From Candidatus Doudnabacteria bacterium (GTDB taxonomy: Bacteria > Patescibacteriota > Doudnabacteria > UBA920): a stretch of DNA of 44,732 nt. This document shows, piece by piece, positions 191 to 44,247 of the stretch. Position 1 is the stretch's first letter. Each line of letters starts with the position of its first letter. Below the pieces are notes generated by a model. The model saw nothing but the letters and a program-made list of their open reading frames with translations. It made no database searches and was not told the DNA's origin. The stretch lies in assembly GCA_020850635.1 (NCBI GenBank), contig JADZEH010000022.1, positions 1 through 44,732 of the forward strand, read 5' to 3'. Made by a program: the position numbers and the translations under genes.

Positions 191-616
191 CTACTCGGCC
201 TTCTTGAGAAGGCTGAGGACAGGCCCCCACTTCTCAATCTGATCCTTCTCGGGAAGCCATGGATAATCCTCAACCGCGACGATCCAAGGGCTCTCCTGCT
301 GGATCAGGGCTAAGACCGCCGGACGAATCGCATCGACGACCTCATGAGGCACCCCACCTCCATCACCAAAGAATCGAAAATATACTCGATCCTCGACCTC
401 GGTTTCGGTGAGAAAGGGCTTAAAGACAATGATCCCCCCACCCAAGGGCGAGACGGAGAAACCCGCCTTAAAGGCTATCTCGTGTGACCACAGGTGATGA
501 TTCCCTATGACGACAGTCAACCTACCATCGAAAAAAATCACCTCAAAGTTAACAGCCCAATGACGACGCCATTTTTCAAAGCGCTCGCCTTCGATTGCGA
601 AAGCCGTAATCTCCAT
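191..616 (-). CDS. Orphan 141-aa protein, GC-rich accessory gene
   Basis: I do not recognise this 141-residue protein. It has no obvious signal peptide or long membrane segment. It mixes beta-strand-like stretches (FEVIFFDGRLTVVIG near residues 24-38) with a Trp/Pro-rich C-terminal part and ends in KKAE. The start is well supported: AGGAGGAG lies just before the ATG, a strength of Shine-Dalgarno signal that most core genes here lack. GC content is high, 38 of 60 bases in a hand-counted sample (301-360). It stands alone, has its own terminator on the left, and is flanked by 22-bp direct repeats at 162-183 and 682-703. A recently acquired or mobile orphan gene is my inference. Confidence 0.75.
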   Translation of the reverse strand: MEITAFAIEGERFEKWRRHWAVNFEVIFFDGRLTVVIGNHHLWSHEIAFKAGFSVSPLGGGIIVFKPFLTETEVEDRVYFRFFGDGGGVPHEVVDAIRPAVLALIQQESPWIVAVEDYPWLPEKDQIEKWGPVLSLLKKAE

Positions 617-3400: not shown

Positions 3401-3476
3401 GAAACCACTGTTCGTCCGCCTTCCATTGAAAACTAATGTTGGGTTGGAATACCGAATAAGAAAAACAACTAACTCA

Positions 3477-3494
3477 CTGAGTGATATCACTCAG
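3477..3494. repeat. 18-bp palindrome next to the ribosome binding site
   Basis: The sequence ctgagtgatatcactcag is perfectly palindromic and ends one base before the SD (aaggag, 3496-3501) of the 3509 gene. As RNA it could form a hairpin beside the SD; as DNA it could be an operator. Confidence 0.6.
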
Positions 3495-3508
3495 CAAGGA
3501 GAACAAAT

Positions 3509-3676
3509 ATGTTCTTAGACGATAACGATGGCGCAATGCCACACGACGACGCTGCACAGGCTCCTGCTGCAATGCCAACAGATGCACCTGCAACAACAAT
3601 GCCAGCTGGCGAAGAAATGCCAGCTTCAACAGAAGCTCCAACTGAAGCTCCTGCAGAAGAAACTCCAGCAGCATAA
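3509..3676 (+). CDS. Small acidic Ala/Pro/Glu-rich protein, 55 aa
   Basis: The 55-residue product starts MFLDDNDGAMPHDD and continues as a low-complexity run of Ala, Pro, Glu, Met and Thr ending in ETPAA. There is no signal peptide or predicted fold, so it should be disordered and acidic. The start is set by SD aaggag (3496-3501), which is unusual for non-exotic genes here and suggests high expression. A strong terminator follows. Similar tiny Ala/Pro-rich ORFs are, to my recollection, frequent in Patescibacteria, but the function is unknown. Confidence 0.7.
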   Translation: MFLDDNDGAMPHDDAAQAPAAMPTDAPATTMPAGEEMPASTEAPTEAPAEETPAA

Positions 3677-35003: not shown

Positions 35004-35038
35004 CTAAAAAAAGACGAAAGCATGTTTCAGCTTTCGTC
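35004..35038 (-). terminator. Terminator overlapping the 35027-35440 stop codon
   Basis: A perfect 9-bp stem, gacgaaagc (35013-35021) with gctttcgtc (35030-35038). Read leftward it is followed by a run of seven T (35006-35012). The stop codon lies in the loop. Confidence 0.88.
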
Positions 35039-35440
35039 ATCATCCTTCCAAAAGGAAGGAGGTAATGGATCTCTCTCAAATCTCGCCAGTCGTCGTTGAG
35101 CGCTTAGCCGCGGCTTGACCCTTTCTTTTAAATATAATGCCTTGGCGTTACGGATGAGATGGACGGTCTTGGTAGAAATCACTGCGGTTAGTGTTCGCTG
35201 AGCCGTCCAGAGGAGTATTCCTGTTTTATGGGCTCCCAAGAACGCGAAGTAGATCGGCCACAGGAACACAGCCATTGCCAAAGCGGGTCCACTAACCATA
35301 CCATCAGGATCCATGTCCATGTGAAATCTCTGATAGGCGTCTTTCCCTCCCTTGTATGCACCATATAGGTACAGACCGAAGGTAAGAATAAAAAGAACCG
35401 TTGGCCCCCAAGTTGGTTCAGTTCCGTATTGGTACATCAT
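35027..35440 (-). CDS. Orphan two-helix membrane protein, 137 aa
   Basis: I do not recognise this 137-residue protein. Membrane segments are likely at about residues 13-31 and 52-70, followed by a basic cytoplasmic-type tail ending in acidic WKDDDES. TAGGAGGA lies just before the ATG, a strong SD. GC is high for the window (32 of 60 bases at 35221-35280). It is a single gene with its own promoter, a 5' hairpin in the predicted mRNA (TCGGC-CACC-GCCGA, 35455-35467) and a terminator overlapping its stop. It belongs with the other GC-rich orphans. Confidence 0.75.
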   Translation of the reverse strand: MMYQYGTEPTWGPTVLFILTFGLYLYGAYKGGKDAYQRFHMDMDPDGMVSGPALAMAVFLWPIYFAFLGAHKTGILLWTAQRTLTAVISTKTVHLIRNAKALYLKERVKPRLSAQRRLARFERDPLPPSFWKDDDES

Positions 35441-35473
35441 GAGTCCTCCTAGTTCGGCGGTGGCCGATCAGGG

Positions 35474-35513
35474 AGCATATCATATTGTCGCTTCTTAATC
35501 AATGCCTTATAAT
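35474..35513. promoter_or_regulatory. Interleaved divergent promoters
   Basis: Rightward: TTGTCG (35485-35490), 17 bp, TATAAT (35508-35513), start at the ABC ATPase ATG (35520). Leftward: TTGATT (35497-35502), 17 bp, TATGCT (35474-35479), start near 35467-35468. The two occupy the same DNA face region, so they should exclude each other. Confidence 0.7.
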
Positions 35514-35519
35514 ACTTTC

Positions 35520-36476
35520 ATGGAAAACGTTATTGAAGTAAACCAGCTCCAGAAGACCTATCCGTTACCTCGAGCCGAACGAAAAACTAAAGGATCTACT
35601 TTCGAAGCCGTTAAAGGCATCTCATTCTCTGTAGAAAAGGGTGAGATTTTTGGTATTCTCGGACCCAATGGTGCTGGCAAGACTACCACATTAGAAATTT
35701 TAGAAGGGATTAAAAGGCCTTCAAGTGGCACCCTTACCGTACTTGGTCTTGATGCTGTAAAAAATGTTGATGCGGTAAAAAAACGTATCGGCGTTCAGCT
35801 TCAAAGTAGCGAGTATTTACCAAACTTGTCTTTAGCAGAACAGATTAATATGTTTGCTGCCCTTTATGAGCGTAAAGTTAATCCGCTTGAGCTTTTAGGA
35901 TTTGTTGGCTTAGCGGAAAAGGCTGCGGAACAAGTTCAAAATTTATCAGGTGGCCAGAAGCAACGTTTCACTATTGCTACATCGTTGGTAAATGACCCGG
36001 AAATTCTATTTTTAGATGAACCAACTACGGGACTTGATCCACGTGCCCGTCGTGATTTGTGGAAGCTTATCCGTGAAATCAACACTAAAGGAATTACGGT
36101 CGTTATCACCACACACTACATGGAAGAAGCTGAATATTTATGTAATCGCGTGGCGATTATGAACAAGGGTATGATCTTAACAATCGATGATCCTCGCAAG
36201 CTCATTGATGATTTAGCCCATACTACCCAAGTCTCCTTTTTCACTAATGAACCAGTTGATGAGAGCTTCTGGAAAAACATGCCAGAAGTTGAGAAGGTTT
36301 ACAGCAAGTATCCAAAAGTGATTTTAGAGATCTCGTCTTTAGATCATATTGGCAATATTATTACTGTTCTTAAAAATAACAAGATTGAATTTAGTGGATT
36401 TGTTGTGAAGACGGCGACGCTAGAAGATGTCTACTTAGATTTAACTGGCCATGAGCTAGAAGTGGAGCATTCGTAA
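35520..36476 (+). CDS. ABC-2 type exporter ATPase
   Basis: The 318-aa ATP-binding subunit is read from the ATG at 35520, which lies 6 bases after TATAAT; an upstream ATG at 35502 would fall inside the promoter. Walker A is GPNGAGKTT, the signature is NLSGGQKQR, and Walker B is ILFLDEPTTGLDP, with H-loop THYMEEAE. The C-terminal ~90 residues are the usual DrrA-like extension. It pairs with the permease one base downstream. The substrate (drug, lipid or polysaccharide) cannot be told. Confidence 0.92.
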   Translation: MENVIEVNQLQKTYPLPRAERKTKGSTFEAVKGISFSVEKGEIFGILGPNGAGKTTTLEILEGIKRPSSGTLTVLGLDAVKNVDAVKKRIGVQLQSSEYLPNLSLAEQINMFAALYERKVNPLELLGFVGLAEKAAEQVQNLSGGQKQRFTIATSLVNDPEILFLDEPTTGLDPRARRDLWKLIREINTKGITVVITTHYMEEAEYLCNRVAIMNKGMILTIDDPRKLIDDLAHTTQVSFFTNEPVDESFWKNMPEVEKVYSKYPKVILEISSLDHIGNIITVLKNNKIEFSGFVVKTATLEDVYLDLTGHELEVEHS

Positions 36477-36477
36477 T

Positions 36478-37224
36478 ATGAGCAGAGCCTTTTTACAACT
36501 TTTTAAAGTAAATTCACTGTTGTTTTACCGAAATCCTGCCGCTTTGTTTTGGACAGTGGCCATGCCTGCAGGATTTTATACGTTGCTTTCGTTCGTCCCC
36601 CTGGAACGTTTAATTGGTACGAGTTATAACTACGCGACCTTCTTGCTTCCAGGTATGATCGCTTATGTCATCATGCAGGGTGGGATTTATGGTTTAGCCT
36701 ATTGGCTGGTTGATATGCGTAGCCGGGGAGTAATAAAGCGTTTTATCGTTACCCCAGTGAAGCCGTATCAAATGGCGGTGAGTGTGGTGGCATCTCGTCT
36801 AGTTGTAATGTTGCTTCAAGTGGTGATGCTAACTTTAATTGGTGTTTTGGTTTTCCACGTTCCTTTTCATTGGAATATTCTTTCGATCGTTGCGTTTACT
36901 TTGCTGGGTGGAACAGTGTTCTTGATCTTAGGTTTGTTTATTTCATCTTTCGCTAAGACTTATGAAACCGCCGCACCAATTACCGCGGCAATCGGCTTGC
37001 CCTTAACAGCACTGGGTAATATCTTTTTCCCAATCGAGAAGTTGCCTGAGATTGTCCAGTGGTTAGCTAGAATTTTACCGATTACTTCTCTAGCTAATGG
37101 ACTACGTAATGTTTATTTAGCTCCATTTGATTGGCATTTAGTTTACAAAGATTTTTTGGTGTTGTTATTGTGGGCGATAATTATGCTTGCTTTAGTTGTC
37201 TGGCGATTTAGACTGGAAGAATAA
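36478..37224 (+). CDS. ABC-2 type exporter permease
   Basis: This 248-aa protein has six hydrophobic segments typical of ABC-2 permeases of the DrrB type: NPAALFWTVAMPAGFYTLL, FLLPGMIAYVIMQ and later helices. The family motif near the last periplasmic loop reads LGNIFFPIEKLPEIVQWLARILP. It starts one base after the ATPase stop, so the two form one transporter operon, ended by a strong terminator. Confidence 0.92.
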   Translation: MSRAFLQLFKVNSLLFYRNPAALFWTVAMPAGFYTLLSFVPLERLIGTSYNYATFLLPGMIAYVIMQGGIYGLAYWLVDMRSRGVIKRFIVTPVKPYQMAVSVVASRLVVMLLQVVMLTLIGVLVFHVPFHWNILSIVAFTLLGGTVFLILGLFISSFAKTYETAAPITAAIGLPLTALGNIFFPIEKLPEIVQWLARILPITSLANGLRNVYLAPFDWHLVYKDFLVLLLWAIIMLALVVWRFRLEE

Positions 37225-37234
37225 TTTGGAAATA

Positions 37235-37262
37235 AAAAAACACCTCATGCGAGGTGTTTTTT
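37235..37262. terminator. Bidirectional terminator
   Basis: A perfect 12-bp stem, aaaaaacacctc (37235-37246) with gaggtgtttttt (37251-37262), between the convergent permease gene and tsaB; it overlaps the tsaB stop. Confidence 0.9.
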
Positions 37263-37629
37263 AGTTGAAATTTGTGGAAGTGTACTCGATGGTGATTTTC
37301 TTACCGCCCTTGAATGAAGCTAGATTGGCTAAGTCAGTTGGAACCTTGTCTTTGGTGATGGCGATTAGTGGGATTTTGTTGGCAAACGCTAAACCTTGAG
37401 CCAAAGTCACCCCAACCCGTGTTCCTGTAAAAGACCCTGGTCCGCTGCACACGATAATTTTGGTGACTTCAGCGACCGAGACCTTATTCTTTTTCAAAAA
37501 CTGTTGCAGATGATCGAGTGTTTTCCAGTTTTCATTATAAGCGATTTCAAAGTGTTGTTCTCTAACAACTTTATCAACCAAAGCAAATCGCATGGCTTTG
37601 AAATCGGTTGTGTCTATATATAAAATCAT
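37261..37629 (-). CDS. tsaB: tRNA t6A synthesis protein TsaB (short form)
   Basis: This 122-aa protein keeps the N-terminal half of TsaB/YeaZ: ILYIDTTDFKAMRFALVD and IIVCSGPGSFTGTRVGVTLAQGLAF. The usual second half of about 100 residues is missing, leaving a short tail. TsaB scaffolds TsaD and TsaE in t6A synthesis. The N-terminal half carries the dimer interface, so function may be retained. It overlaps the end of murE by 4 bases (ATGA), so translation is coupled. Confidence 0.85.
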   Translation of the reverse strand: MILYIDTTDFKAMRFALVDKVVREQHFEIAYNENWKTLDHLQQFLKKNKVSVAEVTKIIVCSGPGSFTGTRVGVTLAQGLAFANKIPLIAITKDKVPTDLANLASFKGGKKITIEYTSTNFN

Positions 37630-38930
37630 AATTTGGCGAGTTCCTCTCGAACGACAGCTCGGTCATCCCAATCAATATAGTTGCCATGAGCCACAGCCAT
37701 TTTCTGTTCACTGCCTTTACCCGTGATCAAAACTAAATCGCCAGGCTTGGCTTGCTTAACTGCAAAGGCGATAGCTTCACGGCGGTCAAGAATAGCAAAT
37801 AGGTTTTCGCCAATGACTTTGCCTTGCTCAAATGCTCCACTCGCGACTTCGTTGATGATCTCTTGAGGGTTGTCATCGTAAGGGTCTTCGTTGGTAACAA
37901 TAACAACACCGGCCGTTTTACCAGCCATTTGTCCGAGAGTGTGACGACGGGCGCGATCACGACCACCACCCGTGCTTCCAAGAACATGAATTATGCGCTT
38001 TTTTGGCCACTGGGCAATTGTGTCATAGAGCGCTTGGAGAGAATAAGGCTCTGGGGCGTAGTCAATCAAAACTGTAAAAGGTTGGTCTTGAATAATTTCC
38101 ATTCGACCTGCAACAACTGCAATTTTTTCGAGAGCAGTTTTACAAGTTTCAAGAGAAATATTTTGTGATTGTGCCACTGCGCTTGCCGCTAAAGCATTAT
38201 AAACGTCGAATTGGCCTTTGAGCTGTAATTTAAATTGAGTATTTTGTAGTTGAAAACTGACACCGTTTGGCGTAGCTTCCACATTCGTTGCGAGTAAGTT
38301 AGCTGATTCATTTTTGATACCAAAACTAATATGTATTGTTGCTGGAAAATTGATGAAGTACTCAAAATGGTCATCATCTGCATTAGCGACAATAGCGGTT
38401 GGGCGTCCAGTATGGTTTTGTTTCAGCGCAGCGAACAATAAGCCTTTGGCTTTTTTGTATTGATCAAATCCCCCATGAGCTTCGATGTGTTCTGGGGTGA
38501 GATTGGTAAAGACAGCGACATCAAAGTTGATTCCTAAATGTCGGTTCTGTTCTAAACCTTGGCTGGAAATTTCTAATACTACGTATTCAAAGTTATTGCG
38601 TACCATTTCCCGAAGCCATTTTTGCATGAGCCAACCAGATGGGGTAGTCATCTTCATATCGTTGAGCTTCTCGGTATCAGAAACTTTAAAATTTACAGTT
38701 GAAATTAATCCAGTTTTATGACCAGCTTCTCCTAAGATGGCCGAGATTAAATTAACGGTTGTGCTTTTACCGTTTGTGCCAGTTACGCCAATAACTTTGA
38801 TGTCTTTCGATGGATTGCCAAAATAGGCGTTCGCTAGTAATGCGATACCCCCGTGCCAGTAAGGTTGGAGAGCTTTGAATATTGAGCGGGGAATAACCGC
38901 TCGACCAATGTTTTTTAAGGTTTTTAACAT
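37626..38930 (-). CDS. murE: Mur ligase, MurE-type (UDP-MurNAc-peptide synthetase)
   Basis: The 434-aa ligase is read from the ATG at 38930 (MLKTLKNIGRAV); the open frame extends 39 codons upstream through the neighbouring promoter. The ATP-binding motif is GVTGTNGKSTTVNL, and TPSGWLMQKWLREM and SSQGLEQNRH fit MurE. It adds the third residue of the stem peptide. The specificity motif, DNPR in diaminopimelate enzymes, reads DDNPQ here, so the amino acid used is uncertain. The N-terminal UDP-binding domain is shortened. A TATACT box 6 bases before the ATG suggests a leaderless mRNA. Confidence 0.85.
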   Translation of the reverse strand: MLKTLKNIGRAVIPRSIFKALQPYWHGGIALLANAYFGNPSKDIKVIGVTGTNGKSTTVNLISAILGEAGHKTGLISTVNFKVSDTEKLNDMKMTTPSGWLMQKWLREMVRNNFEYVVLEISSQGLEQNRHLGINFDVAVFTNLTPEHIEAHGGFDQYKKAKGLLFAALKQNHTGRPTAIVANADDDHFEYFINFPATIHISFGIKNESANLLATNVEATPNGVSFQLQNTQFKLQLKGQFDVYNALAASAVAQSQNISLETCKTALEKIAVVAGRMEIIQDQPFTVLIDYAPEPYSLQALYDTIAQWPKKRIIHVLGSTGGGRDRARRHTLGQMAGKTAGVVIVTNEDPYDDNPQEIINEVASGAFEQGKVIGENLFAILDRREAIAFAVKQAKPGDLVLITGKGSEQKMAVAHGNYIDWDDRAVVREELAKL

Positions 38931-38936
38931 AGATAT

Positions 38937-38942
38937 AGTATA
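38937..38942 (-). promoter_or_regulatory. -10 box of murE-tsaB, leaderless arrangement
   Basis: Read leftward it is TATACT, ending 6 bases before the murE ATG at 38930. Confidence 0.6.
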
Positions 38943-38993
38943 TAGAAAAGTTGGAAGCATAAAAAGTCTGAGTATGTATGATTCTTCATAGAC

Positions 38994-39022
38994 TTGTCTT
39001 TTTTCATTAAATTCAGTATAAT
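38994..39022 (+). promoter_or_regulatory. Promoter of the 39082 orphan gene
   Basis: TTGTCT (38994-38999), a 17-bp spacer and TATAAT (39017-39022); start near 39028. The leader begins with a hairpin, TTTGGG (39031-39036) with CCCAAA (39043-39048), and ends with SD GAGGAGG. Confidence 0.75.
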
Positions 39023-39081
39023 GGCACAGCTTTGGGCAATGCCCCAAAACTAAGAAAATCAGAACGAGGAGGAATCGCCCA

Positions 39082-40425
39082 ATGCGGTTTCAGAAGTCGG
39101 TATCTTTGCTCCTTTGCGCCTTGGTGGCGCTCGTCGGTTTGTCCTTCGAGGCTCAAGCTCTCGCTGTACGCGTGAAGGGAAATCCTTTCCAGGGTCTCAG
39201 CGCGATTCAGCAACCTGAGACAAGCAATGTGTTCTACGGCGTGAAGAATCAGCCTGAGAGCCTCTGGCAGTTGGCTGGTCCGGAAATCGTCCGGGTGGAC
39301 GTCCAGGCCAATGGGTTGTGGTCCCAGACCACCGTCTTTACTGGAGAGCCGAAGACGACATTCGTATCGCTTGGTATCCAAGGCGGTGCGATTTTTGTGA
39401 CGACGCTCGAAGGCGAGATCGTTATCGCCAGCATGGCGACGGGTGACGCCGTTAGTTACGACGGCCTCGTCCCGGGAGTTCGCTACGGACTCATCTTCGA
39501 TGATCCGAGCATGACGGAAATCGGTGTCTACGACACCAATGATCCTCTTCGGCTCGTGCACTATCTCAATCGCTCCTCGGCGCGCTACATGCGGACCGAA
39601 GCGCCAGAAGCGGTAGCAGCGGGATGCTCGACGATCATGGCTCTGGGGCTACGTCGCGTTTGGGATGTGGACTTTCGGAGTTCGTCGGGCTCAACTCGCC
39701 GGTACCTCGTTGTTGATAGCGGAAACTTACTGTTGGCGCCAAGGCTGCTTCAGGTTAGTTACGACTTCACGTCGATGGCTAGCAGCGTGACAGTTATCGC
39801 TACCGGGAGTGTTGGTGAGAATTGGTTTGGTGGAGCCTACTCCAATCCCAATTTCTTCATCACAACGAAGGCCGGGCAGGTGAAGAAGATCAACGTCAAT
39901 ACCGGCGTGATCACGCTTGTCAGTACGACGGCAACACAACCTTTGTTCTACTCGGATTTGGTTGTCAGGACTGAGAGTGGCGTCCCTCAAGTATACTGCG
40001 TGGACTATTACGGAAGGCTTCGTAAGGTCAACGGCAATACCGGGGCGACGACCTTACTTGCTCAGCTTCCTGGCGCTTGCCATTCCATCACTCTCGACGG
40101 TAGTCTCTTGGTCATCACTGGCCAGGAATCCGCCTATGGTTTCAAAGCCTCCATCTGGAGGGTGAACTTTTCCGGAAGTACGGTAACCCTATTCGCTCAG
40201 GGCCCGGCATTTTCAGGAGCGTTCTATGGAATCACAGAGGCGAGTGGGGCGAACAACTACCACGTGATCCAGAACAACACTGGGAGCGTGATCCAGGTCA
40301 ACTCATTCGCCGGACCATGGCCTTTCGTCTGTTCCGCGTCTGGTGGTCAGAACCAAGAGATCACCCGCGATGGTTCGCGGATGATTCTGGGTGACTTCTC
40401 TCAGGGGAGTATCCAGTTTTACTAG
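39082..40425 (+). CDS. Exported orphan beta-propeller-like protein, GC-rich
   Basis: The 447-aa protein has a signal peptide (hydrophobic residues 7-20, likely cut near AQA). Repeating beta-rich blocks follow with patterns such as GQVKKINVNTGVITLVS and GRLRKVNGNTGATTLLA, suggesting a beta-propeller. No catalytic motif is visible and the family is not recognised. GC is high (35 of 60 bases at 39301-39360), unlike its neighbours. GAGGAGG precedes the ATG. It is a single gene read against murE and the kinase operon, with its own promoter, 5' hairpin and terminator. Transfer from a more GC-rich organism is inference. Confidence 0.8.
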   Translation: MRFQKSVSLLLCALVALVGLSFEAQALAVRVKGNPFQGLSAIQQPETSNVFYGVKNQPESLWQLAGPEIVRVDVQANGLWSQTTVFTGEPKTTFVSLGIQGGAIFVTTLEGEIVIASMATGDAVSYDGLVPGVRYGLIFDDPSMTEIGVYDTNDPLRLVHYLNRSSARYMRTEAPEAVAAGCSTIMALGLRRVWDVDFRSSSGSTRRYLVVDSGNLLLAPRLLQVSYDFTSMASSVTVIATGSVGENWFGGAYSNPNFFITTKAGQVKKINVNTGVITLVSTTATQPLFYSDLVVRTESGVPQVYCVDYYGRLRKVNGNTGATTLLAQLPGACHSITLDGSLLVITGQESAYGFKASIWRVNFSGSTVTLFAQGPAFSGAFYGITEASGANNYHVIQNNTGSVIQVNSFAGPWPFVCSASGGQNQEITRDGSRMILGDFSQGSIQFY

Positions 40426-40451
40426 ACCGAACCTGTCGTCGTTGGTCTCTC

Positions 40452-40495
40452 GGCCTCGAATCAGAAGCAATTCTGGTTCGGGGCTCTTTATTTAT
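40452..40495 (+). terminator. Terminator of the 39082 orphan gene
   Basis: An 11-bp stem with a few G-T pairs, cctcgaatcag (40454-40464) with ctggttcgggg (40473-40483), extended by G-C and G-T pairs and followed by CTTTATTTAT. Confidence 0.75.
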
Positions 40496-40512
40496 CTAAA
40501 TTTATTCCGAAC

Positions 40513-40539
40513 AAAAAACGTTCTAAGCTAGAACGTTTT
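40513..40539 (-). terminator. Terminator of the ruvA-femX-kinase operon
   Basis: Arms aaaacgttct (40515-40524) and agaacgtttt (40530-40539) pair fully. Read leftward a T-run follows. The kinase stop codon lies in the hairpin. Confidence 0.85.
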
Positions 40540-41095
40540 GTAAGTGTTGTTGATAGAACTGTTGTACTTGTCTTTCTAAATCTTCTAGTGACCCGTTGTT
40601 GTCTATTATCACCGTCGCATGTTGTTTGAGTGAGGGAATGGCTGACTCTGTTGGTCCTTTGTGTTGCTCTATAAATTGGTCATAAGTTGTTTCGTTCTCA
40701 CCATGTTTTTCTCCGCGACCTATCATCCTTTTGTATCGAGTTTCTGGAGCAACGTCGACATAGGCAACTGTTAGATCAAAATGCTTTTGCAAATAGTTTA
40801 AAGTTTCAGGGAATCTAATGCTGTCAAAAATTACAACTTCTTCGGGTTGATTCGCAATCAGTAGCCCTAAAGCAGTGTTAAAAGTTTCTGGTCCAAATCC
40901 TTGATTCATTAGTTGGGGAAGGAGTTGTAAGTTTTCACGATTTTTTTGCACTCCCCACATTTCCAGGTTTTGTTTTAAAAAATTGGAACTACTTGCTCTA
41001 CCAATCTTTAAATTATTTGCACACTTTTCTAAAATTTTTATTGCGGTATCTTTACCACAGCTCATCTCTCCCACAAAAGCAATTACGTGTTTCAT
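40523..41095 (-). CDS. P-loop kinase (AAA_18/dephospho-CoA kinase-like)
   Basis: This 190-aa P-loop protein starts MKHVIAFVGEMSCGKDTAIKILE, with Walker A GEMSCGKDT. VVIFDSIRFPETLNYLQ serves as the Walker B/DxxR-like region, and a lid with Arg residues follows (RYKRMIGRGEKHGENE). It resembles small nucleotide or dephospho-CoA kinase-like proteins that are common and unassigned in Patescibacteria; the substrate is unknown. It starts 4 bases after the FemAB-like gene in a leftward operon headed by ruvA. Confidence 0.75.
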   Translation of the reverse strand: MKHVIAFVGEMSCGKDTAIKILEKCANNLKIGRASSSNFLKQNLEMWGVQKNRENLQLLPQLMNQGFGPETFNTALGLLIANQPEEVVIFDSIRFPETLNYLQKHFDLTVAYVDVAPETRYKRMIGRGEKHGENETTYDQFIEQHKGPTESAIPSLKQHATVIIDNNGSLEDLERQVQQFYQQHLQNVLA

Positions 41096-41099
41096 TAGG

Positions 41100-42125
41100 C
41101 TAATACTTCATCTGATTAATAAATCGATTGATTTTTCTGAGCACTCTGTACATTAAATAAGCGGAGTGGTTGTTGATTATATCATAGGCTCCTGCGTACT
41201 CAATCACGTAACCACCAAAACCTTGTTTGAAACGAGCGAAGCCAGCTTCTTTACCAACAGAGGTTTCCAGTCCATCGAAATCGTAGCCACTAAGGCCACG
41301 GCGCTTGGCATCGAGCATAGCAGTGTAGTGGAGTAAGTAGGGGGCCATGGTATTACGATGTTCATTTGATGATCCACCGAATAAATAAGTCCGAGTGCTA
41401 CCAAAGTCTACCATCATTCCTGTAGCCACAATTGAGCCAGCATACATCGCTGAGTAAACCGAAACTGTTACTTCTGCTGTGTCTTGATGAGGTTTAAAGA
41501 AGTTTACGATGGTATCGTAGTAAGTAAATGGGTGAGTGTGATAACCTTGGCGCTTAGCCGTCTCTAAAATTAAGTTTATTGCTCTCGAATAAAATTCTTT
41601 ATGATCACCAACTCCAGCGGTTTCTTTTTGAATTTCAACGTTGTGTCGCTGTGCCACTTTAATGTTGTACCGAGTTTTAGGGTGCATGGTTTGAAGAATT
41701 TCTTCTGCTGTTGGTTTTAAATCGATAATTAAAGTTCGGGCCGGTTGAATGTTGATCGATTTTTTCCCTTGGGGTTGGGTGAGTTTAAATTTTGGCTCAA
41801 TACGAATAAATAAGCTTCTTGGAAAGAGCGTTTTTATTTCATCGATAAAAAAGTTTAAGACTTCTTCGCCAACATCATCTTTTTTAACCGGACCATATGG
41901 TAAATAAAGATAGTTTGCTGTGCCAAACAAAGGCATGCTAATCACTTGGGCAGCTAAAATAATATCGTCTTCGTTTTTAACCACGAAACGACGAATATCT
42001 TTGTTACTGTATTCACGTTGGAGTTCACCCCATTGCCACGCTTGTAAAAATGAGCCACTAGTTTGTTTTGAGACAAACTCATTGTAGTCACGTTCGTCTT
42101 GTTCAGTGCATTTATATAGTTGCAT
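41100..42125 (-). CDS. FemAB/FemX-like peptidyltransferase
   Basis: This 341-aa protein has the tandem GNAT-like architecture of FemABX enzymes, which add amino acids from aminoacyl-tRNA to peptidoglycan precursors. Recognisable parts are SGSFLQAWQWGELQ, TLIIDLKPTAEEILQTMHPKTRYNIKVAQR, and YLFGGSSNEHRNTMAPYLLHYTAMLDAKRRG. The coiled arm of some family members is absent. With murE and PBP1 in the window it points to a cross-bridged wall. It lies 3 bases from ruvA and 4 from the kinase gene. Confidence 0.88.
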   Translation of the reverse strand: MQLYKCTEQDERDYNEFVSKQTSGSFLQAWQWGELQREYSNKDIRRFVVKNEDDIILAAQVISMPLFGTANYLYLPYGPVKKDDVGEEVLNFFIDEIKTLFPRSLFIRIEPKFKLTQPQGKKSINIQPARTLIIDLKPTAEEILQTMHPKTRYNIKVAQRHNVEIQKETAGVGDHKEFYSRAINLILETAKRQGYHTHPFTYYDTIVNFFKPHQDTAEVTVSVYSAMYAGSIVATGMMVDFGSTRTYLFGGSSNEHRNTMAPYLLHYTAMLDAKRRGLSGYDFDGLETSVGKEAGFARFKQGFGGYVIEYAGAYDIINNHSAYLMYRVLRKINRFINQMKY

Positions 42126-42128
42126 GGG

Positions 42129-42683
42129 CTATCGGCTTAACATTTTCAAAGCTGCTTTAAGTTGATCTTCCGTGGAGGAAGAGTTGTCGAGTTTTTGTAA
42201 GGCTTCGCGAACTTCGCGAGAAGAGTAGCCAAGGTTGATTAAGGCGTCATAAATATCGCTGGATCCAGTTGAGGTTGGGTTAGCGAGGACCCCGATTTTT
42301 GTTTTAAGTTCTAAGATGATACGCTCTGCAGTTTTTTTACCGACCCCACTCATGCGAGTGAACAGTTCGGCGTCGTTGTTGGCGATAGCTTGTTCTATAG
42401 TGGCTGGTTTAGCTGCGGAAAGAATACCAAGGGCGACTTTGGGGCCAACACCAGAGACGGTAATGAGCATTTCAAAGAATTGGAGGGTGTTGAAGTCGGG
42501 GAGACCAAATAAGGTCTGGCCATCGTCATTTACTCGAAGGTGGGTGTAAAGTTCGATTTCTGAGTCAGTTGAGTGCTCCATGAGCTCAGGTGTCACAAAA
42601 ACTTTGTATCCTAAGCCTTGGTTCTCCACGATCAAGAATTGGAGGGTTTTTTGGAGAATGCGTCCTTTTAAGTAAGCGATCAT
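42129..42683 (-). CDS. ruvA: Holliday junction protein RuvA
   Basis: This 184-aa protein binds four-way junctions as a tetramer and recruits RuvB. The N-terminal OB fold starts MIAYLKGRILQKT. Helix-hairpin-helix motifs are VSGVGPKVALGIL and MSGVGKKTAERIILELK, and the C-terminal domain III ends LKAALKMLSR. It heads the ruvA-femX-kinase operon. An extended -10 box (TGCTATACT in leftward reading, core 42690-42695) ends 6 bases before the ATG. Confidence 0.96.
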   Translation of the reverse strand: MIAYLKGRILQKTLQFLIVENQGLGYKVFVTPELMEHSTDSEIELYTHLRVNDDGQTLFGLPDFNTLQFFEMLITVSGVGPKVALGILSAAKPATIEQAIANNDAELFTRMSGVGKKTAERIILELKTKIGVLANPTSTGSSDIYDALINLGYSSREVREALQKLDNSSSTEDQLKAALKMLSR

Positions 42684-42689
42684 ATGCTA

Positions 42690-42695
42690 AGTATA
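42690..42695 (-). promoter_or_regulatory. Extended -10 box of ruvA, leaderless arrangement
   Basis: Read leftward it is TATACT preceded by TGC; transcription should begin at the ruvA ATG itself (42683). Confidence 0.65.
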
Positions 42696-42730
42696 GCATC
42701 CATTGAAGAAAGCAGCTTAAATTGGTACAG

Positions 42731-42759
42731 TTGACTTTTCCTAATAAATATGGTAAAAT
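42731..42759 (+). promoter_or_regulatory. Promoter of the 42816 orphan gene
   Basis: TTGACT (42731-42736), a 17-bp spacer and TAAAAT (42754-42759) with extended TGG. Start is near 42765. The mRNA would open with the hairpin TCGC-TTCG-GCGA (42766-42777), a UUCG tetraloop. Confidence 0.78.
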
Positions 42760-42815
42760 GTGGAATCGCTTCGGCGAGCGGCTTTGCCGTAGTTTTGGTT
42801 TACAAGGAGACTGAT

Positions 42816-44180
42816 GTGACAACACTTCAGTATCGTGCAGCGCATCTGTTGATCGCTGCGTGGGTTCTTTTCTTTTTTGTGTCTCCTGTGAGGGACATGA
42901 TCAGCATCATGAAAGAAGAGGAGAACGTGAGGCAGTCTCTCGTTCCTACTCTCACTCAGCAGGAGTTTGAACATCGGCTCGATGAATGGATTCGTTCTTC
43001 GAGCCATGAGAGTGATGCCGGTTTCCCTGACCCAAGTTTTTACCCGAAGTGGGTTGCTGAAGGTCAGGTGCTGGAGGTCATCGGTCGAAAGATTGACAAT
43101 CAGCCAATGGAAGTGAGTCAAGACGTGATCAGGCTTCGTCATAGATTGATGTCGATAACGCCAGTCATCAACCAGACTCAGGCTCAGATGAGTGCCAAGC
43201 ATGGTGGCGCGCAAATGGCACGGGTTTGTGAGGATTACTTCAGCTCTCACGAAAACCCCACCCTTGCTTTCGATAAGGCAAGAAGTGACCGTTCGTCGTT
43301 GCCTTCGTGGTGGGTTGCCTATCTGGCCTCTTTGCCGTTTATGGCCTTGTTCTTCGGTCTCAGGCTGAAGCGTGAGGGGCTCCAGATATTCCCCGAACTC
43401 GTTGGTTTCTGGCGTCCTTGCGGAGCAATCCTGGCGTGGCCGGTGATGATGTGGAAGTACCCCAAGGACATTGATCCTCGCGATCAACTTCTCAGGAGCC
43501 TCCGCTATGCGTCGGTCATACTGGGTGCGATTCTGTCCGTGTTCTCTGGCGGAGTTGGCGTCGTAAAGGCGCAAACGAAGGACAATGGTGGCAAAAAGTC
43601 CGTTTCCGGTTTCGTCTTTTCAGGTGTGGACCTGGGCGACGTTGCGGGGGATGGTCCGAAGCCTTCGGCCTTCAACATTCTGCAGTTCAACCTCGAGAAA
43701 AGCTGGGTGCGTTCGACGACGTTCGTCGACAACTCCTCGCTCTCGGAGAGGATCGACGTCGGGATCACCAAGAAGCTCGGCCAGTTCACTCTCAAGCCCT
43801 ACGCCGGAGTCGGTGTGAATGCAAACTTTGACGGCCCGGATACCTATTCGGTGGTCGCTGGCTCCCAGTTCCATTGGGCCAGACCGCCTACAGTCTCGGT
43901 TTCTGTGCCCGTGCTGCACGTTTCAAAGGAGTTGAACGGGGCGCACGCGACCAAGTTCTCTATGCTTGGTCAAGCCACCACTCCTTCTCGGTTGAAGAAG
44001 GATCTCAGGGTTGGAGTCGAGTGGAATGTTGGGAAAAAGCTGGGTTCAAGGGCGTCATGGTACGCTGGACCCGTGATTTCTGGCAATTTCTGCCGATTCT
44101 TGAAGAATCTCGAGTTCGGCGTGCTTTTCAACCGTGACCGGTCTGTGACCGTGACGGCACGTCGGGTCTGGGTGTTCTAA
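42816..44180 (+). CDS. Orphan membrane protein with beta-rich C-terminal half, GC-rich
   Basis: The start is GTG at 42816, 6 bases after AAGGAG (42804-42809). The open frame extends upstream to 42750, but that lies inside the promoter. The 454-aa product has membrane segments at about residues 9-26, 163-184 and 230-250. Residues ~263-454 are rich in alternating strands (QFTLKPYAGVGVNANFDG, LRVGVEWNVGKKLG) and end in WVF, like an outer-membrane barrel. The family is not recognised. GC is high (34 of 60 bases at 43681-43740). It is a single gene with its own promoter, UUCG 5' hairpin and GC-rich terminator. Confidence 0.75.
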   Translation: MTTLQYRAAHLLIAAWVLFFFVSPVRDMISIMKEEENVRQSLVPTLTQQEFEHRLDEWIRSSSHESDAGFPDPSFYPKWVAEGQVLEVIGRKIDNQPMEVSQDVIRLRHRLMSITPVINQTQAQMSAKHGGAQMARVCEDYFSSHENPTLAFDKARSDRSSLPSWWVAYLASLPFMALFFGLRLKREGLQIFPELVGFWRPCGAILAWPVMMWKYPKDIDPRDQLLRSLRYASVILGAILSVFSGGVGVVKAQTKDNGGKKSVSGFVFSGVDLGDVAGDGPKPSAFNILQFNLEKSWVRSTTFVDNSSLSERIDVGITKKLGQFTLKPYAGVGVNANFDGPDTYSVVAGSQFHWARPPTVSVSVPVLHVSKELNGAHATKFSMLGQATTPSRLKKDLRVGVEWNVGKKLGSRASWYAGPVISGNFCRFLKNLEFGVLFNRDRSVTVTARRVWVF

Positions 44181-44202: not shown

Positions 44203-44247
44203 GGGGTCTGGGCAGCATCACTTTTCGCTGCCCCGACCCCTTTTTTA
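44203..44247 (+). terminator. Strong GC-rich terminator
   Basis: Paired blocks ggggtc (44203-44208) with gacccc (44235-44240), and gggcagc (44210-44216) with gctgccc (44227-44233), are followed by TTTTTT (44241-44246). It ends the 42816-44180 gene. Confidence 0.9.

Follow-up and report, generated by a model that had tools for sequence, protein, structure and literature searches.

Hairpins at the 5′ end are known stabilisers of single mRNAs. In E. coli, the ompA and papA messages carry 5′-terminal stem-loops that act as mRNA stabilisers, and such elements have been appended to bla (PMC3997798, references 93-95 there). In B. subtilis, mRNAs are stabilised by a 5′ hairpin, which protects them even from a distance, and BsRppH, the decapping enzyme, requires two or more unpaired nucleotides at the 5′ end (PMC3997798). 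For Patescibacteria, our literature search for surveys of Shine-Dalgarno (SD) sequences or start sites gave nothing relevant. Here, we find a hairpin at the predicted message start at two to three times the chance rate in the SD-bearing orphan genes of a Candidatus Doudnabacteria bacterium and its relatives, while conserved genes show no such excess. The genome analysed (G000) comprises 868,613 bp on 38 contigs, about 84 kb of which were masked, and its UvrB (71% identity to that of Candidatus Doudnabacteria MAG-296) places it in Doudnabacteria; the window is the whole stretch of 44,732 nt from this genome, and an orphan is a gene without a tblastn match in the sampled relatives.

Three orphan leaders in the window

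In G000, GC3 is bimodal: 99 genes of at least 80 aa have a GC3 of at least 0.5, and an SD of at least five matched bases precedes 68% of the high-GC3 genes versus 22% of the low-GC3 genes. These GC-rich, strong-SD genes lie dispersed between low-GC genes, few of which have an SD, and most of the GC-rich ones are orphans. The class also holds purL-like, pyrF-like, S6-like, radical SAM and CDP-alcohol transferase proteins, and a minority of the 59 high-GC3 SD genes has a Pfam match (26 families in total, several of them on the same protein in some cases). Its members in the window are 191-616 (minus strand), 35027-35440 (minus strand), 39082-40425 and 42816-44180, and the last three concern us here.

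The first of these, an orphan ORF of 137 aa (35027-35440, minus strand), is preceded by a predicted sigma70-type promoter at 35474-35502, composed of TTGATT (35497-35502), 17 nt and TATGCT (35474-35479). If the base that follows the −10 hexamer is taken as position 1, so that the canonical +1 falls at about 7, the hairpin TCGGC-CACC-GCCGA (35454-35467; −6.5 kcal/mol) opens with its outer pair at position 7. The SD, AGGAGG (35445-35450), follows 3 nt past the hairpin, and an intrinsic terminator of 9 bp and T7 lies at the ORF end (35013-35038; −14.5 kcal/mol). The second ORF (39082-40425, plus strand; 447 aa with a hydrophobic N-terminus) has the promoter TTGTCT-17-TATAAT (38994-39022), which matches 10 of 12 consensus bases, a hairpin TTTGGG-CAATGC-CCCAAA with its outer pair at position 9 (39031-39048; −5.3 kcal/mol), the SD AGGAGG (39067-39072) and an intrinsic terminator with a 15-bp stem (40452-40485; −30.3 kcal/mol for the folded stretch). 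The third (42816-44180, plus strand), which opens with GTG and codes for 454 aa that include two hydrophobic segments, is read from TTGACT-17-TAAAAT (42731-42759; again 10 of 12, with TG before the −10), and its predicted message opens at position 7 with TCGC-TTCG-GCGA, a stem capped by a c(UUCG)g tetraloop (42766-42777; about −4.7 kcal/mol). In the leader fold, a second hairpin, GCGGC-TTT-GCCGT (42778-42790), adjoins the first; the SD AAGGAG (42804-42809) and, behind the gene, the intrinsic terminator GGGGTC-TGGGCAGC..GCTGCCCC-GACCCC followed by T6 (44203-44240; −28.0 kcal/mol) complete the unit.

All three hairpins claimed by the first-pass annotation are thus present in the sequence, each 0-2 nt from the predicted start (outer pairs 7, 9 and 7). 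The coordinates it gave for the two plus-strand hairpins hold, while the minus-strand one, placed at 35455-35467, was one base off. The promoter of 35027-35440 is weaker than the other two, and the consensus scan missed it because of its 8/12 match, whereas the weight matrix found it with a score of 9.7. When each leader is folded to its minimum free energy, the hairpin forms the first stable helix, and pairing of the SD is weak or lacking. Given that the intrinsic terminators behind all three genes are unusually strong, we read each unit as a monocistronic message that is capped by one hairpin in front and another behind.

What else could these structures or genes be? A U tract after the stem is absent from all three leaders, and terminator or attenuator identity was rejected on this ground and because the excess described below persists once U-tract stems are excluded. 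A known leader RNA or riboswitch was rejected as well, there being no Rfam match at gathering score in the window. None of the three orphans has a Pfam or PHROG family, or a homologue in 60 relatives, which makes a covariation test on these genes impossible; a phage origin was sought for 39082-40425 and a plasmid origin for 42816-44180, in either case with no match.

Enrichment and anchoring of stems at the predicted 5′ end

Three data sets were compared: G000 itself, a relative from a different genus (G007), and 49 leaders from the same order that were picked by the pattern of a promoter plus GGAGG alone, with the first two genomes excluded. Promoters were called by a weight matrix blind to the leader sequence. 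A simple test called an uninterrupted stem of at least four pairs, with its outer pair at positions 5-9 and a dG of −1.5 or lower, and used dinucleotide shuffles as the control. By this test, 15 of the 50 orphan leaders with an SD of at least five bases carry a stem in G000 (shuffles 6.8±2.4; 0 of 200 reach the count), one of these matches (window 3474-3641) being a doubtful ORF with a terminator. The corresponding count in G007 is 11 of 58 (4.7±2.1; 2 of 200), and 12 stems were found among the 49 same-order leaders (7.3±2.4; 16 of 500). Conserved genes stay at their own shuffle level (9/94 in G000 and 7/85 in G007); because the start-codon picker favours SDs, some internal starts are to be expected among those conserved genes that have an SD of at least five bases.

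A stricter test kept the first ten bases, including the 5′ arm, shuffled the remainder, and required a dG of −3 or lower and an outer pair at positions 6-8. Across the three data sets pooled, 22 of 157 orphan-SD leaders have such a stem, against an expectation of 7.1±2.5, and not one shuffle in 1000 reached this value. The leaders of conserved or SD-less genes do not depart from expectation (4/120 versus 3.0; 4/114 versus 3.5), and the two classes differ accordingly (22/157 versus 8/234; Fisher p=0.0003). Dropping terminator-like stems, that is, those with a U tract, leaves 19 versus 6.5±2.4 expected in the pooled set (0 of 500) and 6 versus 2.4±1.4 in the same-order set (11 of 500). The hairpin difference between the gene classes is therefore real. 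It holds across G000 as a whole, in the second genus and in the order set when SD-bearing orphans are scanned against shuffled leaders, and the background rate in conserved and SD-less genes bears out the statement that core promoters give no such leaders. In a small set from other orders (n=13), there was no excess (1 versus 1.5 expected).

The size of the effect is another matter. By the simple test, 15-30% of the class carries a stem, about half to two thirds of these stems being in excess over chance, so that the window, with its three out of three, gives too high a rate. Most class leaders (about 80%) have no detectable hairpin, and the first-pass annotation went too far in assigning one to each well-defined orphan mRNA. 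The probability that the first nucleotides are paired, computed over whole leaders, is clearly above shuffles in the order set (0.51 versus 0.38±0.04), weakly above in G000 (0.42 versus 0.37±0.03) and not above in G007. Among the strongest promoters of G000 (threshold 11), the hairpin contrast shrinks to 3/20 versus 4/46.

Where do the stems sit? Most often they start at positions 6-8, where the canonical +1 lies, while anything from 1 to 83 nt separates them from the SD. As this gap varies with the start staying at the predicted +1, the stems appear to be anchored to the 5′ end and not to the ribosome site. Moreover, structure is kept rather than sequence: the stems of different genes are unrelated in sequence, the excess survives when the 5′ arm is held constant, and two diverged paralogues that share 34% identity have kept a GTCG..CGAC 5′ stem with differing loops. 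UUCG or GNRA tetraloops close four of the stems, as compared to 0.18 in shuffles. Together, the anchoring at +1, the differing sequences and the stable tetraloops of some stems point to an element of the RNA that is coupled to its 5′ end.

Two further loci of G000 were noted in passing. At C25:64113-64628 (plus strand; L055:4113-4628; leader TCGCAAGGAGGAACGCGACATG), a 5′ stem TCGC..GCGA encloses the SD and stops just before the start codon; this could be a translational switch. Two near-identical small conserved genes, S15-like by eye, lie at C27:1112-1390 (plus strand) and C28:3979-4257 (minus strand), with near-identical promoters and leaders, and represent either a recent duplication or an assembly copy.

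An initiation motif and the competing explanations

A second feature, overlooked by the first-pass annotation, exceeds the hairpin in statistical strength. Behind the −10 box, T(T/C) occupies positions 7-8 in 24 of 50 orphan-SD leaders of G000 versus 11 of 120 others (p=6e-8), and TCG in 12 of 50 versus 1 of 120 (p=1.5e-6); in conserved or SD-less genes of this genome, position 7 is mostly A (51%). Examples in the window are 42766-42768 and 35465-35467 (minus strand). The motif is weaker in G007 (11/58 versus 7/114, p=0.011), and the order set has the consensus G-T-(T/C) at positions 6-8 (57%, 59% and 74%). Seventeen of 60 relatives have TCG at position 7 together with a promoter and an SD; the matches number 22 at offset 7 and 14 at offset 9. 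The notion that TCG is special to G000 was relaxed, other genera preferring GTT or GTC at 6-8. Since the motif occurs with and without stems, and often without (17/24 in G000), it is a separate feature, be it an initiation motif or a tag at the mRNA 5′ end.

This raises the main rival to decay protection, namely that selection acts on the initially transcribed sequence. T(T/C) at positions 7-8, frequently as TCG, or else G-T-Y at 6-8 might be a promoter element that sets start-site choice or promoter escape, and the hairpins might partly be a by-product or themselves aid the escape of RNA polymerase. The class contrast in G000, the consensus in the order set and the many stemless occurrences all speak for such a role. 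Yet some stems open with other bases, and the enrichment of stems even with the 5′ arm held fixed implies that the 3′ arm is selected, too; on balance, we consider a role in initiation or escape rather unlikely.

Less probable still is that the stem serves translation, either by soaking up the leader so that the SD remains single-stranded or by forming a ribosome standby site. It would fit that a strong SD defines the class, that little of this SD is paired in the window leaders, and that in a number of cases the stem ends 1-14 nt from it. A device acting on the ribosome is harder to reconcile with an SD gap of 1 to 83 nt behind a stem whose start is fixed at +1, and with the two stems that enclose the SD (C25:64113; G007 C5:12160).

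A further reading is chance combined with the selective eye of the reader, or terminators left over from upstream genes: the background stem rate is about 3-10% per leader, and a few matches are terminator-like (window 3474-3641; G007 C1:33398 and C5:33533). This reading is already disfavoured and quite improbable, given that the excess remains after such stems are dropped and was replicated in two further data sets. DNA inverted repeats serving as repressor operators over +1 would be suitably located just 3′ of the −10 box, but this reading was rejected and strikes us as the most improbable of all, as sequence and arm spacing differ from gene to gene with no common palindrome, and stable RNA tetraloops recur.

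Proposed protection from 5′-end-dependent decay, and known stabilisers

Which machinery could such a stem oppose? Genes for RNase J and RNase Y were found in the genome, with scores of 598 and 594 bits, respectively, and none for RNase E/G; beyond four generic NUDIX proteins, no RppH was identified. RNase J, RNase Y and the NUDIX decapping candidates would make up a 5′-end-dependent decay pathway that a hairpin could block. With RNase J and RNase Y encoded and RNase E/G not found, protection from this kind of decay appears to be the best explanation for the stems, and we give it an even chance of being correct. We propose that in a subset of the SD-bearing orphan genes of the Doudnabacteria order, nucleotide 1 or 2 of the mRNA opens a short stem-loop, leaving 0-2 unpaired 5′ nucleotides. 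As the decapping enzyme of B. subtilis needs at least two of these, the stem would deny a landing site to the pyrophosphohydrolase, and it may do the same to RNase J as a 5′→3′ exonuclease; the monocistronic, terminator-capped messages would live longer as a result. The computations establish that the stems exist, that they are anchored at the promoter-predicted +1 and specific to the class, that related genera have them, too, in different sequences, and that genes for RNase J and RNase Y are there. From these, we infer the actual transcription start, the protection and its benefit. The observation generalises beyond the window, and the mechanism is plausible.

Taken together with the motif, the data tentatively suggest two mRNA classes transcribed from similar sigma70-type promoters in Doudnabacteria: a conserved class that mostly starts with A, often lacks an SD and is free of 5′ stems, and one of accessory genes, which combines a G/A-U-(U/C) or UCG start with a strong SD and often a 5′-terminal hairpin. 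This joint picture is possible rather than probable. If true, motif and hairpin would form a built-in stability and expression tag for lineage-specific genes, separating accessory from core genes by leader sequence only. Such a class-wide and lineage-wide bias would mean that, in the minimal genomes of an uncultured Patescibacteria order, new genes are sorted post-transcriptionally, and a testable prediction follows as to the positions of transcript starts and the nuclease that matters.

How does this compare with known systems? Riboswitches and Rfam leader RNAs share a structured 5′ leader with the orphan messages, which, unlike them, have no conserved sequence or fold past one small stem. 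Closer are the ompA and papA stabilisers of E. coli, likewise stem-loops at the extreme 5′ end, independent of sequence, with few unpaired nucleotides and upstream of a good SD, the starts in our case being predicted ones. These, however, concern single genes or engineered leaders and act against RppH and RNase E, whereas the enrichment described here spans a gene class, in a lineage without detectable RNase E/G. The B. subtilis aprE leader, too, combines a 5′ stem-loop with ribosome binding, in a host that, like this genome, has RNase J and RNase Y for decay, and stabilisers of the aprE type act against RNase J and RppH. While aprE is an individual gene, in Doudnabacteria many unrelated orphans bear unrelated stems, to which the T(T/C)/TCG motif is added.
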